The position numbers and the translations under genes are program-made. The notes below the pieces were generated by a model. It saw only the letters and a program-made list of their open reading frames with translations, did not search any database and was not told the DNA's origin. A stretch of 32,224 nt of DNA from Candidatus Krumholzibacteriota bacterium (GTDB lineage Bacteria; Krumholzibacteriota; Krumholzibacteriia; LZORAL124-64-63): contig JAJRZA010000058.1 of the NCBI GenBank assembly GCA_024275485.1, forward strand, positions 1-32,224, in the 5' to 3' direction. Shown piece after piece: positions 1,161 to 7,662 of the stretch; positions within the stretch are counted from its first letter, which is position 1; every line of letters begins with the position of its first letter.

Positions 1161-2291
1161 CTAGCTGATGGTCTCCACGTATTTGATACCGCGGGTTGCG
1201 AGGCCTTCCAGCAAGAAAGGCACGCAGCCCGGCACCCGGCCCATGTACTCCGGTGGGGAAATTCCTTTATGGTCATAAAGGCCGTCGACAACCATTCGAA
1301 GGGCCATGGTTGCTGTATAACCGGTGGTGCGGGCCATGCTGGTTGTGCCGGTTGTGGGGTCGAAGCGGTCCAGCAGGTCGTATCGGTAGTGGATAGGCTG
1401 ACCGTCCTTCAGGCCATCGATCTGGATTTGCATGATGGTGAACTCCCCTTCACCGGGCGCCAGGTGCCACATGGGGAACACGAGTTTGACCGTCAGGTCC
1501 AGTGGACGTACCATTTGGCCGTTCACTTCCACTGGTTCCTCACTGAAGAAACCGCTGTCTCGCAAGGCAGCCATCTTGGCGATGTGGCCGGGGAAGCGCA
1601 GGGTTTTTTCCTTCATGTTGGAGGCCTTGATTGTTTGCATCAGGGTGCGCAGACCGTCGGTGTTGAAGGCCTCAAGGGTGCCCACTTCGGGGAACTCCAG
1701 CAGTTCGGGATCCGACAGGGCAGGCATGATCACGAGCTCACCGTTTTCGATGTAGCGGGCGGGCCGGATGTACTCTTCGATCACATCGATGGGTGAAAAG
1801 ACGGCCTTGTACTCCCAGGGCTGCACCCGCTTTTCAGGCAGCCCGCCCACATAGGTGAGCACATTGTTAACCTGGTCCAGCCGCCGAGCCGCCCTGCCAA
1901 CCAGGGCACTGCCCATTCCGGGAAAAACGCCGCAGTCCATGATGGCAGTAACGCCCTGCTGTTTGGCGAGGTCGTCCAGCAGGAAAGGATCTTCCGGAAA
2001 AAACGCTATATCGATGACGTTACGCCCCGCCTTCAAGATGGCCTTCAGGGTGCGGAAGCCCATGAAGCCCGGCACCGCGTCGACCACAAAATCGTAATCA
2101 CCGACCAGGTTCTGCACCTGTTCGGGATCGGACAGGTCGCGTTTCAAAGGTGTGATGGGAGCTTTGGCAGCCAGACTGTCGAGGGCCCCCTGGTCCACAT
2201 CCGCGACGGTGACTTCAAAGCCTGAATCAGTCGCCAAGTCCATGGCCATGGGGGCGCCAACCAGCCCGGCACCCAGAACGATGATTTTCAT
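1161..2291 (-). CDS. Saccharopine dehydrogenase-like NAD(P)-dependent oxidoreductase
   Basis: A cytoplasmic 376-residue protein of the saccharopine dehydrogenase-like family. The N terminus is a Rossmann fold with VLGAGLVGAP (GxGxxG, about residues 5-13), and a second acidic strand end (VTVADVD) suggests NAD binding. The middle has the family features VVDAVPGFMG, NVIDIAFF and a DCGVFPGMG loop, followed by the mixed alpha/beta substrate domain. Relatives act on saccharopine, lysine, carboxynorspermidine or similar amino acids; the substrate cannot be told here. The start is supported by GAGGAGG four bases before the ATG. It is divergent from the methyltransferase operon at 2541, with which it shares a 249-base intergenic region, so joint use on an N-methylated amino acid is possible but unproven. 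Confidence 0.85.
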   Translation of the reverse strand: MKIIVLGAGLVGAPMAMDLATDSGFEVTVADVDQGALDSLAAKAPITPLKRDLSDPEQVQNLVGDYDFVVDAVPGFMGFRTLKAILKAGRNVIDIAFFPEDPFLLDDLAKQQGVTAIMDCGVFPGMGSALVGRAARRLDQVNNVLTYVGGLPEKRVQPWEYKAVFSPIDVIEEYIRPARYIENGELVIMPALSDPELLEFPEVGTLEAFNTDGLRTLMQTIKASNMKEKTLRFPGHIAKMAALRDSGFFSEEPVEVNGQMVRPLDLTVKLVFPMWHLAPGEGEFTIMQIQIDGLKDGQPIHYRYDLLDRFDPTTGTTSMARTTGYTATMALRMVVDGLYDHKGISPPEYMGRVPGCVPFLLEGLATRGIKYVETIS

Positions 2292-2540: not shown

Positions 2541-4001
2541 ATGCGCCCTTCTTTGCGTTTCCTTACCAACGAACTCGCCGACCAAATCATCGACGAAGCG
2601 CGAGACCTGCTCGGCACCCTGGGCATGGAAATCCACAACCAGCAGGCGGTCAGCCTGCTGGCCGACCACGGCGCCGAGACCTCTCAGCCCGACGGCCGCG
2701 TCCGTTTCACCTCCGACCTCATTGACAAGGCCCTGGCCACCGCCCCATCGTCTTTCGCCCTATTCAACGGCCACGGCCAACAAACCCACGATCTGGGGGG
2801 CGACCGCGTTCATTTCACCCCCGGCTCGTCGGCCATCAACTTCCTGGATCCGGCTACGCAAAAAATGCGCCGGCCCCTGACCCCTGACTATGTTCGCTAC
2901 ACCAAGGTCGTCGCCCAGTTGGCTGGTATTGACGCCCAAAGCTCAGCCTTTATCCCAACCGACATACCTGGCGAAATACAGGACAGTTACCGCTTGTTTC
3001 TTTCCCTGCTCCATTGCTCAAAACCCGTCATCACGGGCGCCTTTTCCCTGGCCGGCTTTACCGTCATGAAGGACCTTCTGCTGGCCGTGCGCGGCTCCGA
3101 GACCGCCCTGCGCGACAAACCATTGGCCCTGTTTTCCTGCGCCCCGACCACGCCCCTCAGTTGGAGCGAAGTCACCTGTCAGCATTTGTTGGACTGCGCC
3201 GTGGCCGGTATTCCGGTGGAGATTCCCACCATGCCTTTGGCCGGGTTCACGTCGCCCGTTACTGTGGCCGGTACCCTGGCCCAACACGCGGCCGAAACCC
3301 TCAGCGGGGTGGTGCTGGCCCAACTGGCAGATCCCGGCGCAAAAGTGCTTTACGGCGGATCGCCTGCACCTTTCGACATCCGTTACGAAACGACTCCCAT
3401 GGGGGCGGCCGAGACCTGGCTGCTGGACGCCGGACTGAACGAGGTTGGCAAGCGATTGGGCTTGCCCACCCAGGCCTACATCGCCCTGAGCGACGCCAAG
3501 GCCCTGGACGCTCAGGCCGGTCTGGAAACAGGCATGGGCGCGGTGGTGGCCGTGTTGTCGGGAATCAACAATGTCTCGGGCCCGGGTATGCTGGATTTCG
3601 AGAACTGCCACAGTGTGGAAAAGCTGGTGGTGGATCATGAGATAGTGGAACTGGCCCGCAGACTGGGACGGGGTATTGCGCCACGGGACGATTTTCCTGT
3701 GCGGCCAAGGGTTGAGGAACTGCTTAATGAGGGTCACCTTCTGATCAGCGATCACTCCATGCAGCATCTGGCGGAGGAACATTATTTTCCAGACCCTGTC
3801 ATCGAACGGTCCAACCTCTCGCGTTGGCAAGAAGATGGTGCCCTCACCGTTGCCCAGAAAGCCAAGACCAGAGCCGACGCATTGGTGGTCTCCTGGCAAC
3901 CGCCAGGACTGTCTGCAGAAGCTGAAAACAACCTGATTGAGCGCATGACCGACGCCGCAGCCGAGCATGGCCTTGACGTTTTGCCGGATCGGGTAATATG
4001 A
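2541..4001 (+). CDS. MttB-family (non-pyrrolysine) methylamine:corrinoid methyltransferase
   Basis: A 486-residue protein of the trimethylamine methyltransferase (MttB, COG5598) family. Members move a methyl group from a quaternary or tertiary amine (trimethylamine, glycine betaine, proline betaine, carnitine) to Co(I) of a partner corrinoid protein. Family landmarks are RFLTNELADQI at the N terminus, FTPGSSAINFLDP (about 92-104) and SDAKALDAQAG (about 317-327) near where archaeal MttB carries pyrrolysine. There is no in-frame TAG, so it belongs to the Pyl-less group typified by MtgB. I chose the ATG at 2541 because GAAGG lies eight bases upstream; an in-frame ATG at 2520 has no ribosome site. 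The stop overlaps the next start (ATGA). The exact methyl donor cannot be read from sequence; a betaine is the leading guess. Confidence 0.9.
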   Translation: MRPSLRFLTNELADQIIDEARDLLGTLGMEIHNQQAVSLLADHGAETSQPDGRVRFTSDLIDKALATAPSSFALFNGHGQQTHDLGGDRVHFTPGSSAINFLDPATQKMRRPLTPDYVRYTKVVAQLAGIDAQSSAFIPTDIPGEIQDSYRLFLSLLHCSKPVITGAFSLAGFTVMKDLLLAVRGSETALRDKPLALFSCAPTTPLSWSEVTCQHLLDCAVAGIPVEIPTMPLAGFTSPVTVAGTLAQHAAETLSGVVLAQLADPGAKVLYGGSPAPFDIRYETTPMGAAETWLLDAGLNEVGKRLGLPTQAYIALSDAKALDAQAGLETGMGAVVAVLSGINNVSGPGMLDFENCHSVEKLVVDHEIVELARRLGRGIAPRDDFPVRPRVEELLNEGHLLISDHSMQHLAEEHYFPDPVIERSNLSRWQEDGALTVAQKAKTRADALVVSWQPPGLSAEAENNLIERMTDAAAEHGLDVLPDRVI

Positions 4002-4705
4002 GGGAAGTTCTGGATATTCCACTGGCCGAGATCCTGCCGGAGTCCCCTACCGTTTTGGTGCAACAAGGCGTGCCGGCAGGAACGGAACCGGAAACCATCG
4101 CAGATATCGCCCGCGAAGCTTGCCGATTGCTGACCTCTCTCACGGCACCCCGAGGACTCCTGGAAGATATCGACCTCGCCACTTTCGCTGCCATCTACCC
4201 CGGCCAAGGCGAAAACGCCCCACGATCCCCTTTGGCTGAGATCCATCCCCAGGCCGAGGCACTGGCCTTGTTTGCCGTGACGGTAGGGTCTGCCGTCAGC
4301 CAGCAGATCGATCAACTGTTCGACGACCACAACTATCCTCTGGCCGCCGCCCTGGACGCCGCCGCCTCCCTGGCCGCGGACAGCGGCGCCGCCTGGATGC
4401 AAAAACGTTTCGCCGGCCGCTGCACTTCAAACCAAGGTGTGCTACGCTACAGTCCGGGATATTGCGGTTGGCACGTGAGCGCGCAAATCAAACTCTTCGC
4501 CAAGCTGAATCCAGGTGAAATCGGCATCACCCTTGGCGAAAGCTGTCTGATGGATCCGCTCAAATCGGTGTCCGGAGTAATGGTGGCCGGCCCGCCCGTC
4601 ATTCATGAATTTACACCCGACTTCGACTTCTGCGCCGAGTGTGCCGATCACCAGTGCCGGGACCGCATTGACCACGTTTTGCACCCTGGCCACAAGGAGA
4701 CCTGA
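3998..4705 (+). CDS. MetH reactivation-domain-like protein
   Basis: A 235-residue soluble protein resembling the vitamin-B12-dependent methionine synthase activation domain, as a free-standing polypeptide. The segment RYSPGYCGW (150-158), followed by QIKLFAKLNPGEIGITLGESCLMDP, matches the SAM-binding and cap-contacting region of that domain (PGY motif, then a strand and a Ser/Cys-x-Met-x-Pro turn). In MetH this domain uses SAM to remethylate oxidised Co(II). The C terminus has CAECADHQC (212-220), three clustered cysteines not present in MetH, which could bind a metal or FeS centre. It begins inside the stop of the MttB-like gene and is followed after one base by the corrinoid-protein gene. 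Inferred role: reductive reactivation of that corrinoid protein. Confidence 0.8.
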   Translation: MREVLDIPLAEILPESPTVLVQQGVPAGTEPETIADIAREACRLLTSLTAPRGLLEDIDLATFAAIYPGQGENAPRSPLAEIHPQAEALALFAVTVGSAVSQQIDQLFDDHNYPLAAALDAAASLAADSGAAWMQKRFAGRCTSNQGVLRYSPGYCGWHVSAQIKLFAKLNPGEIGITLGESCLMDPLKSVSGVMVAGPPVIHEFTPDFDFCAECADHQCRDRIDHVLHPGHKET

Positions 4706-4706
4706 G

Positions 4707-5366
4707 ATGGAGCTTTTGCAACTCATCGCCGCCGAGTTGGAGCAGGGACACGCCCCGCAGGTAGCCGAGCTGACGGCCGAAGCCATCGCCCAGGATCTGG
4801 CGCCCGGCGACATCTTGCAGGACGGCCTCATCGCCGGCATGGACGTTGTGGGCGAGAAATTCCGCTCCCGCCTGATCTTCCTGCCCCACGTTCTGCTGGC
4901 CGCCCGGGCCATGCACGCAGGCATGGATCTGTTGAAGCCTCTACTGATACGCGATGCGGTGCCCACACTCGGGAAAGCCATCCTGGGCACTGTCAGTGGT
5001 GACCAGCACGACATCGGCAAGAACCTGGTGGGCATCATGCTTGAAGGGGCGGGCTTCGAGGTCATCGACCTGGGCACCAATGTGTCGCCGGACGCGTTTC
5101 TTGAGGCCGCTTGCGAGCACGACGCCAAGGTGGTCGGCATGTCCGCCCTGTTGACCACCACCATGCCGGTCATGGGACAGGTGATCGCGTTGTTGAAGGA
5201 AAATGATCGGGCCGGTGATGTGCGCACAGTAGTGGGCGGCGCCCCGGTGACCGAAGACTACGCCCGGGAAATCGGCGCCGATGCCTACGCTTTCGACGGT
5301 GTAAGCGCGGTGGATCGCATCCGCGCCCTCTTTGCCGGTGAGCCGGGCCTGCAGGAGGAATCATGA
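4707..5366 (+). CDS. Corrinoid (B12-binding) methyl-carrier protein
   Basis: A 219-residue MtbC/MttC/MtgC-type corrinoid protein. Residues 1-85 are the helical cap domain and 90-215 the cobalamin-binding Rossmann-like domain. The B12 signature is complete: D99-Q-H101-D-I-G104, with His101 the lower axial cobalt ligand, then the SALL region (146-149) and VVGGAP (175-180). The protein carries the methyl group between the MttB-like enzyme and an acceptor methyltransferase. The ATG at 4707 is preferred over longer frames because AAGGAG lies just upstream and the previous gene stops two bases before it. The next gene starts within its stop codon (ATGA), so translation is probably coupled. Confidence 0.95.
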   Translation: MELLQLIAAELEQGHAPQVAELTAEAIAQDLAPGDILQDGLIAGMDVVGEKFRSRLIFLPHVLLAARAMHAGMDLLKPLLIRDAVPTLGKAILGTVSGDQHDIGKNLVGIMLEGAGFEVIDLGTNVSPDAFLEAACEHDAKVVGMSALLTTTMPVMGQVIALLKENDRAGDVRTVVGGAPVTEDYAREIGADAYAFDGVSAVDRIRALFAGEPGLQEES

Positions 5367-6262
5367 ACCGCCCGCTGATGGACCGCCTGACCCAGGGCGA
5401 GGTGGTCCTCCTGGATGGTGCCATGGGCACGCGCCTGCAGGCGTTGGGTCTGAAGGGCGGTGAAGCCCCCGAGGCCTGGAATCTGGTGCGCACCGACGAT
5501 GTGGCCTCGGTGGCCGCAGCCTACGCCGCCGCAGGCTCCGACATTGTGCACACCAACTCTTTCGGTGCCTCTCCCCTGAAACTGGAGGCCCATGGCCTGG
5601 CCGATCAGGCCGTGTCCATCAATCAGGCCGCCGTCGCAGCCGCCCGCAAAGGTGCCGACGGACGTGCCCTTGTCAGCGGCTCCATGGGCCCCTGCGGCGG
5701 GCTGTTGCAACCCTATGGCGACCTGGATCCCGCCCAAGTGGCTGCTGGTTTTGCCCTGCAAGCAGAGGCCCTGGTCGCAGGCGGCGTGGACCTGCTCTGC
5801 GTCGAAACCATGATCGACCTGGCCGAGGCCGTGCTGGCGGTGACGGCGGCGCGCGCAGCCCTGCCCCATGGTGTGGTCATGGTCTCGCTCACCTTCGAGC
5901 CCACGCCCCGCGGTTGGTTCACCATCATGGGCAACGACGTGCCCACCGCCGCGGCCGAATTGTCCCACGCCGGAGCCAACGTGATCGGCAGCAATTGCGG
6001 TCAGGGCACCGCAGGCATGTTGGAGATCGCCCAGGAATTCGCTGCAGCCGGCGACTGCCCCATCCTCATTCAGCCTAACGCCGGCCTGCCGGTGCTCAAG
6101 GGAACCGACGTCCACTACCCCGAATCCCCAACGGACATGGCCGCCGCGGCACCCGCCCTGTTGGCTGCCGGGGTGCGCGTGATCGGCGGGTGCTGCGGAA
6201 CCACATCCTCCCACATTGTCGCTCTTCGACAGGCCATCGACCAATGCGCGGAGGGTGTGTGA
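5363..6262 (+). CDS. Homocysteine S-methyltransferase domain protein
   Basis: A 299-residue TIM-barrel enzyme of the homocysteine S-methyltransferase family (MetH N-terminal domain, BHMT, MmuM). The zinc site is intact: Cys212 in GSNCGQG and Cys277-Cys278 in GGCCGTT. Other conserved segments are LLDGAMGTRLQ (16-26), THTNSFG-like HTNSFGAS (63-70) and SGSMGP (105-110). It should accept the methyl group and form methionine. The pterin-binding domain of MetH is absent and no separate one is encoded in this operon, so the donor is probably the adjacent methyl-corrinoid protein. Length and domain ends match the isolated MetH homocysteine module. Translation is coupled on both sides (ATGA upstream, GTGA downstream). 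Confidence 0.92.
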   Translation: MNRPLMDRLTQGEVVLLDGAMGTRLQALGLKGGEAPEAWNLVRTDDVASVAAAYAAAGSDIVHTNSFGASPLKLEAHGLADQAVSINQAAVAAARKGADGRALVSGSMGPCGGLLQPYGDLDPAQVAAGFALQAEALVAGGVDLLCVETMIDLAEAVLAVTAARAALPHGVVMVSLTFEPTPRGWFTIMGNDVPTAAAELSHAGANVIGSNCGQGTAGMLEIAQEFAAAGDCPILIQPNAGLPVLKGTDVHYPESPTDMAAAAPALLAAGVRVIGGCCGTTSSHIVALRQAIDQCAEGV

Positions 6263-7662
6263 GTCAAAAATCGCCTATCCCCGATACCTCCACCGGACTC
6301 ATCCGTCAACTGGGTCTCTTCGATGCATCCATGATCCTGTGCGGTATCGTCATCGGCTCGGGAATTTTCACCAGCACCGGGCTGATGGCGGTCTATCTGC
6401 CCTCCCCGGGCTGGATTCTACTGGCCTGGTTGGGTGGCGGCCTGCTCACCCTGGCCGGCGCCCTGACCTTCGCCGAATTGGGCGCCGCCATGCCCCGGGC
6501 CGGCGGTCATTATGTTTATTTGAAGGAAGCCTATGGCCCGTTGTGGGGCTTTCTCTGCGGCTGGATTCTGTTTCTGGTTTACATGTCCGGCGGCATCGCG
6601 GCCTTGGCGGCGGCCTTCGCCGAATATCTGGGCGGTCTGTGGCCTGCGGTGTCCACGTCGCGGATGTTGTGGGAAATAGACCTGCTGCCCGGCGAGACCG
6701 AATTGTGGTGGCGCGTATCTGCGGGGCAACTGATGGCCGTGGCCTCCATCGTTATTCTGTCGTGGGTGAATTGGCTGGGCGTGCGTGAGGGCAAACTCGT
6801 CCAGAATACTTTGACGGTGATCAAGATATGCGTGCTGGCCGCCCTGGTGGTCCTGGGTCTGACTCTTGGCAAAGGGCAGGGCTTTGCCCCGCAGTGGCAA
6901 CCGGCGGGCATGGATTTTCGACAACTGGCCATGGGGTTTGGGGTGGCCTTGGTGGCAGTGTCGTGGGCCTTCGACGGCTGGAACAACGTTAATTTCGCGG
7001 CGGGTGAGATTCGGAACCCGTCGCGCAATTTGCCGCGGGCCCTGGTACTGGGAACCTTGCTGGTGACGGTGCTCTACCTGCTGGTGAATCTGGTTTACTT
7101 CCGGGCCTTGTCCATTGGCGAGATGGCCGGCCAAGTGCGGGTGGCCGAACTGGCGGTGGATGCGCTGTTTGGCGGAGCGGCTGGCCCGGTGCTGGGCGTG
7201 GCCATTATTATCTCCATCTTGGGATCGCTGAATGGATCGATTTTGACGGGGCCGCGGATATATTGGGCCATGGCCAGGGACGGGCTGTTTTTCAAGTCTG
7301 CGGCGCGGGTGCATCCTAGGAACAATACGCCGGATCGGGCCATCGTATTGCAGGCCATATGGGCAAGTTTGTTGGCAGTGACGGGAACGTTCACACAGCT
7401 CTTTACCTTTGTAATGTTTGTTTCGATCATGTTCTGGATTGCGGCCGCTGGGGCAGTGATCGTATTGCGAAGGAAGCAGCCTGATTTGCCGCGGCCTTAC
7501 CGGGTCTTGGGGTATCCTTGGGTACCGCTGGTGTTTATCGGGGCTTCCGCAGGAATTTTGGTTAGTAGCTTGATGGAGAGTCCCGGGGCGTCTTTGGCCG
7601 GAATTGGGCTAACCTTGTTGGGGGTGCCTGTTTATTGGGGGTGGAAAAGGAAGGGGCGGTAA
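6259..7662 (+). CDS. APC-superfamily amino acid permease
   Basis: An inner-membrane transporter of about 467 residues with roughly twelve hydrophobic segments. The APC signature GIVIGSGIF follows the first-helix start, and a WAFDGWNNVNFAAGEI segment near mid-protein with NPSRNLPRAL resembles the LAT/cationic amino acid branch. The GTG at 6259 overlaps the upstream stop (GTGA) and follows GGAGGG closely; an ATG at 6244 without a ribosome site is the alternative. As the last gene of the methyltransferase operon it probably imports the methylated amino acid or amine, or moves methionine; the substrate is inference. Synonymous GC content appears to fall toward the 3' end. A strong terminator follows. 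Confidence 0.88.
   Translation: MSQKSPIPDTSTGLIRQLGLFDASMILCGIVIGSGIFTSTGLMAVYLPSPGWILLAWLGGGLLTLAGALTFAELGAAMPRAGGHYVYLKEAYGPLWGFLCGWILFLVYMSGGIAALAAAFAEYLGGLWPAVSTSRMLWEIDLLPGETELWWRVSAGQLMAVASIVILSWVNWLGVREGKLVQNTLTVIKICVLAALVVLGLTLGKGQGFAPQWQPAGMDFRQLAMGFGVALVAVSWAFDGWNNVNFAAGEIRNPSRNLPRALVLGTLLVTVLYLLVNLVYFRALSIGEMAGQVRVAELAVDALFGGAAGPVLGVAIIISILGSLNGSILTGPRIYWAMARDGLFFKSAARVHPRNNTPDRAIVLQAIWASLLAVTGTFTQLFTFVMFVSIMFWIAAAGAVIVLRRKQPDLPRPYRVLGYPWVPLVFIGASAGILVSSLMESPGASLAGIGLTLLGVPVYWGWKRKGR

Follow-up and report, generated by a model that had tools for sequence, protein, structure and literature searches.

Several described corrinoid systems come close to the locus presented here. Six members of the MttB superfamily have known substrates; all are N-demethylases, and the pyrrolysine-less ones among them act on acidic quaternary amines (PMC12155760). 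In the D. hafniense MtgB-MtgC-MtgA system and with E. limosum MtpB, MtcB, MtyB and MthB, a non-pyrrolysine MttB methylates a corrinoid protein, and the acceptor is tetrahydrofolate via MtgA/MtqA. Ruegeria pomeroyi MtgBCDE already joins MttB, corrinoid and homocysteine modules: both methionine synthesis and growth on glycine betaine require the corrinoid protein MtgC and the pterin protein MtgD, MtgE is the homocysteine module, and reactivation is by RamA and DUF1638 (PMC12478193). The split MetH of P. inhibens and the S. meliloti bmt-mttB cluster similarly have MttB and a homocysteine enzyme sharing one corrinoid protein; in S. meliloti (L196) the corresponding genes lie in one region, a methyltetrahydrofolate-cobalamin enzyme included. 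MetH, including T. maritima TM0268/TM0269, comprises homocysteine, corrinoid and activation modules, TM0269 (1j6r) being a free-standing activation protein. Finally, the core methionine synthases MesA-MesD, which belong to the MetE family (PF01717), make methionine from methyl-corrinoid independently of folate (PMC7857596).

The window, that is, the whole 32,224-nucleotide stretch of Candidatus Krumholzibacteriota DNA that was analyzed, contains what is likely a self-contained, folate-independent corrinoid methyl-transfer operon running from a quaternary amine to homocysteine. The genes are as follows.

1161-2291, minus strand: saccharopine-dehydrogenase-like gene, divergent, beside the operon
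2541..4001, plus strand: MttB-superfamily methyltransferase, 486 aa (PF06253, 7e-70)
3998..4705, plus strand: free-standing MetH-type activation protein, 235 aa (PF02965, 4.7e-9)
4707..5366, plus strand: corrinoid protein, 219 aa (PF02607 and PF02310; 8e-19, 4e-28)
5363..6262, plus strand: zinc homocysteine S-methyltransferase, 299 aa (PF02574, 7e-63)
6259..7662, plus strand: APC-family amino-acid permease (PF13520, 7.6e-66)

The first-pass annotation had placed four overlapping or adjacent genes at 2541-6262, and both the Pfam domains and the junctions agree. ATGA overlaps join the MttB and activation genes (at 3998) and the corrinoid and homocysteine genes (at 5363), and a single base (4706) separates the activation gene from the corrinoid-gene ATG at 4707; an upstream ATG at 2520 is a possible alternative start of the MttB gene. 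A fifth gene, absent from that annotation, is coupled in the same manner: the GTG start of the permease overlaps the stop of the homocysteine gene (GTGA at 6259). The permease probably transports either the substrate or the product of the system, and an APC permease also adjoins the operon or the MttB gene in G061, L041 and L042. Unlike in MtgBCDE-type systems, all the genes of the set stand in one operon. The saccharopine-dehydrogenase-like gene was rejected as a partner, as blastp found none beside other copies of the operon. No riboswitch reached gathering score in the window and seven related loci; the sole match of the scan, which lies in L061, is to PYLIS_3 and overlaps that locus's own MttB gene, and a promoter and terminator scan gave results no better than shuffles. 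The NCBIfam scores of the four proteins all fall under the curated cut-offs of the named equivalogs, so each is to be regarded as a family member and not as a known ortholog.

The MttB protein, encoded by a single gene in the genome, is a predicted quaternary-amine:corrinoid methyltransferase. The first-pass annotation had called it pyrrolysine-less, and this holds: the frame is open without an in-frame TAG, which rules out pyrrolysine, and Leu316 occupies the pyrrolysine position (Pyl334) of MttB, as in MtgB. It aligns to M. barkeri MttB (7xcl/7xcm) and D. hafniense MtgB (9yce/2qne). We built a maximum-likelihood tree from 51 MttB sequences. The operon MttBs come out as a single clade (100/100, stem 1.37), at the base of which stands a Chloroflexota protein; MtgB lies outside this clade, in a group with MttBs of S. 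meliloti and Terrarubrum (also 100/100). The window's MttB therefore differs in clade from that of MtgBCDE, and its substrate is not implied by MtgB. Glycine betaine as the assigned substrate was rejected on the same ground and because the operon has neither a betaine transporter nor a demethylation gene as its neighbor; it is not specially favored as donor. A link to trigonelline and NAD through NadA near the f5 loci was also discarded, NadA being on the opposite strand and its proximity probably only synteny. By analogy with the known-substrate members, all of them N-demethylases, the donor is likely a quaternary amine, even though neither a riboswitch nor a betaine gene gives a sign of what it is, and this counts against our preferred explanation.

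The long stem of a clade that excludes both MtgB and MttB would also suit a non-quaternary donor (a methylated amine, sulfonium or ether), or a chain reversed so as to methylate such a compound. Reverse methyl flow, with methionine as donor and Co(I) as acceptor, is thermodynamically unfavorable. A SAM-driven corrinoid system directed toward product is on record in estrogen degraders (PMC7448270), but given also the uniform N-demethylase activity of the six superfamily members (PMC12155760), we hold this reading to be very unlikely.

The corrinoid and homocysteine proteins were assigned correctly from the outset. The corrinoid protein carries DxHxxG (DQHDIG, with His101 as the predicted ligand), SxL (S146-A-L148) and GG (G177-G178); DxHxxG, and with it His101, is invariant in 28 of 28 relatives. 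It resembles MtgC/TIGR02370, below the curated cut-offs, and matches 1y80 and 7xcn_M (MttC) in the PDB. In the homocysteine enzyme the proposed zinc ligands Cys212, Cys277 and Cys278 are invariant across all 26 relatives, and the best PDB match is T. maritima MetH (1q7m, 1e-42).

The second NCBIfam match of this fourth protein is a betaine--homocysteine methyltransferase (BHMT) model, and P. inhibens Bmt reportedly uses betaine and DMSP directly in vitro (PMC12366255). One could therefore picture a corrinoid-independent, BHMT-like enzyme using betaine or sulfobetaine, with MttB and the corrinoid protein serving another acceptor. We compared residues with a BHMT reference sequence checked against the PDB. 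Trp44 and Tyr77 of BHMT, which we take to be betaine-site residues, are replaced by Ala and Gly in the window's enzyme, the Gly being present in 26/26 relatives, and the BHMT C-terminal extension was not found. These losses suggest that the enzyme needs another donor. The closest solved structure, moreover, is the homocysteine module of MetH, and a gene for another acceptor is not present; we judge the BHMT-like reading highly improbable and return to transfer through the corrinoid protein.

The activation protein is the least obvious member of the set. The PF02965 match covers only residues 149-200, and a single-sequence phmmer comparison with 1j6r, the T. maritima MetH activation domain, is weak (0.038). 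A profile of the family reaches 1j6r at 1e-17, and the AlphaFold model (pLDDT 82) finds the same structure as its best fold match (E 1.8e-11, TM 0.67/0.79), the next-best being other MetH activation domains. The domain formerly described as 'reactivation-like' is thus confirmed as MetH-type for its fold, and it is a predicted SAM-binding module. RxSPGY (R150-x-S-P-G-Y155), Q163 and P187-x-K189 are kept in 26/26 activation proteins; the motif MxPxKS is also present, and a C-terminal CxxCx4C occurs in most of them, although most f6 members lack it. Searching plasmids with the activation protein gave no match. In MtgBCDE reactivation belongs to RamA and DUF1638, both absent from the window's operon, which has the MetH-type domain instead, as a free protein like TM0269.

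We examined 80 genomes of the phylum, of which 31 carry an operon-type MttB, at 32 loci. All four genes stand together at 24 of these loci, and most of the others stop at a contig edge. Two gene orders occur, MttB-Act-B12-Hcy in families f1 and f3 and B12-Hcy-Act-MttB in f5, f6 and f8. When loci are compared in pairs, the identities of the four proteins rise and fall together (r = 0.82-0.95 over 21 loci), a correlation to which species relatedness contributes; the four genes are an evolutionary unit. Within the window's family only two genomes have the operon, the window's and G061 (MttB 74% identical; its record L040, JAHOYV010000003.1, bears the label 'Gemmatimonadales bacterium'), so that it is patchy there and perhaps laterally acquired. 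Two MAGs (L041, L042) with 60-62% MttB identity have the set split over two loci, one with an MttB-corrinoid pair and a divergent APC permease and another with the activation-homocysteine pair, which indicates that the activation gene and the homocysteine gene move as a pair. Only in families f5 and f6 does the operon extend past MttB (L049 5100-7679, L064, L067 and others), with downstream genes for an isochorismatase-family hydrolase, a thioredoxin-reductase-like flavoprotein and a radical SAM protein.

Activation and MttB proteins of the same types are found outside the phylum, at six Chloroflexota loci (L181-L186), in clusters of the form Act-MttB-MeTr-MttB-B12. The encoded acceptor enzyme is of the folate type in these clusters and of the homocysteine type in the window's phylum. 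This swap of the acceptor gene points to homocysteine as the acceptor here, and among our comparisons it is the strongest argument to that effect. In the same Chloroflexota clusters the second MttB is divergent and there are one or two corrinoid proteins; among 13 Chloroflexota activation genes, two have one in-frame TAG and one has a TAA.

The methyl-tetrahydrofolate domain, already reported as missing, is indeed lacking from the operon, which has no pterin module; in contrast to MetH, it has an MttB in that place and its modules are on separate polypeptides. A separate pterin-binding partner would have undercut the proposed route. The window's genome is 96% complete, and PF00809 picks out just two proteins in it: FolP (TIGR01496, 292 bits) and a complete MetH (TIGR02082, 1609 bits), the latter through its pterin domain. 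MetF adjoins this MetH, and PF01717 (MetE, core-MetE) has no match in the genome. The operon is therefore not the housekeeping methionine synthase, and the idea of a 'methionine synthase in pieces', taken as a replacement for MetH, has to be dropped. We also built a profile (A2) of the free MeTHF:corrinoid methyltransferase from f5/f6 relatives, whose best PDB match is 4o0q/4o1e/4o1f. In the window's genome it finds the MetH domain and a non-credible FolP match, with no free enzyme; nor did it find one in G061, G003, G006, G074, G075 and G079, of which the G074 and G075 genomes are single contigs. Pfam likewise gave no free enzyme in G061, G003, G006, G074 and G075. The MtgD pterin methyltransferase of MtgBCDE thus has no counterpart in either the window's operon or its genome.

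These results bear directly on another explanation, a split methionine synthase with MtgBCDE-type betaine entry, in which a MeTHF:corrinoid methyltransferase elsewhere in the genome, or the pterin domain of MetH, is the partner and folate carries the methyl groups one way or both ways. R. pomeroyi MtgB, MtgC, MtgD and MtgE provide the precedent (PMC12478193), and f5/f6 relatives are without MetH but have an MtgA-like protein. The free enzyme is missing from the seven genomes just listed, and a pterin gene is never inside the operon, in either gene order; we consider this explanation unlikely. In the named f1, f3 and f8 genomes the operon cannot be a split MetH, unless MetH itself partners.

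With no pterin-binding methyltransferase partner in the window's genome, a route from an N-methyl donor through MttB and the corrinoid protein to homocysteine is the simplest reading, and for this genome the first-pass interpretation is probably correct at its core; MtgB is no guide to the donor, since MttB falls outside the D. hafniense MtgB clade, and the folate independence may not extend to f5/f6. The steps, their direction and the substrate we infer as follows. The donor is probably a carboxylated betaine or a trimethylated amino acid, which the permease may import. MttB would transfer a methyl group from the quaternary amine to Co(I) of the corrinoid protein, and the zinc homocysteine methyltransferase would pass it from methyl-corrinoid to homocysteine, yielding methionine. 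Corrinoid oxidized to Co(II) would be rescued by the activation protein through SAM-dependent reductive methylation, like that of the MetH C-terminal domain. Since MetH and MetF are present, this would be an accessory demethylation and methyl-salvage route in the window's organism alongside the complete MetH; with methionine already made by those enzymes, selection for the operon must come from the donor side.

The situation in f5 and f6 is different. There is no MetH-range match and MetE is absent; most of these genomes encode a free MtgA-like MeTHF:corrinoid enzyme located away from the operon, and they have a homocysteine methyltransferase-MTHFR fusion of roughly 620 residues. Folate independence can therefore not be generalized to them, and by analogy with R. 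pomeroyi MtgBCDE (PMC12478193) the operon may also serve there as a split MetH. In G079 (operon locus L060; 96% complete) MetH, MetE, core-MetE and free MeTr all went unmatched, and FolP and a homocysteine methyltransferase-MTHFR fusion were the only proteins of this kind. There is perhaps a small chance that in such lineages quaternary-amine methyls are the main or only methyl source for methionine; if so, the methyl supply of methionine and SAM would be folate-independent and come from an environmental osmolyte.

How new is the arrangement? The four-gene combination had been put forward as not known to be characterized. We found no report of a pterin-free MttB-corrinoid-homocysteine-activation operon in the open-access PMC literature, and R. 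pomeroyi MtgBCDE is closer than had been noted, as there too methionine synthesis is coupled to amine demethylation. A self-contained, folate-free version thus appears not to have been described previously, though close cousins are known. Its encoded acceptor, homocysteine, distinguishes it from the D. hafniense and E. limosum systems. If our reading is right, corrinoid modules are wired here from amine demethylation straight to methionine, folate-free and with their own MetH-type repair protein, which would make modular corrinoid chemistry cleanly testable, bring in an as yet unassigned MttB clade whose substrate is likely new, and give uncultured bacteria a cobalamin-dependent means of living on the methyl groups of osmolytes.

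The outcome would be like that of MesA-MesD, folate-independent methionine from methyl-corrinoid, although the window's genome encodes no protein of their family. Elsewhere in the phylum sample, L149 (G044, 1501-2622) and L152 (G006, 483-1559) contain MetE-family (PF01717) frames of ~360-375 aa. These frames, and those in further genomes, have exactly one in-frame TGA each, which in L149 and L152, from different families, lies in the same conserved context, RRTFM-U-ATLATRRDAG. Judged by sequence, they are candidate selenocysteine proteins of the core-MetE type.
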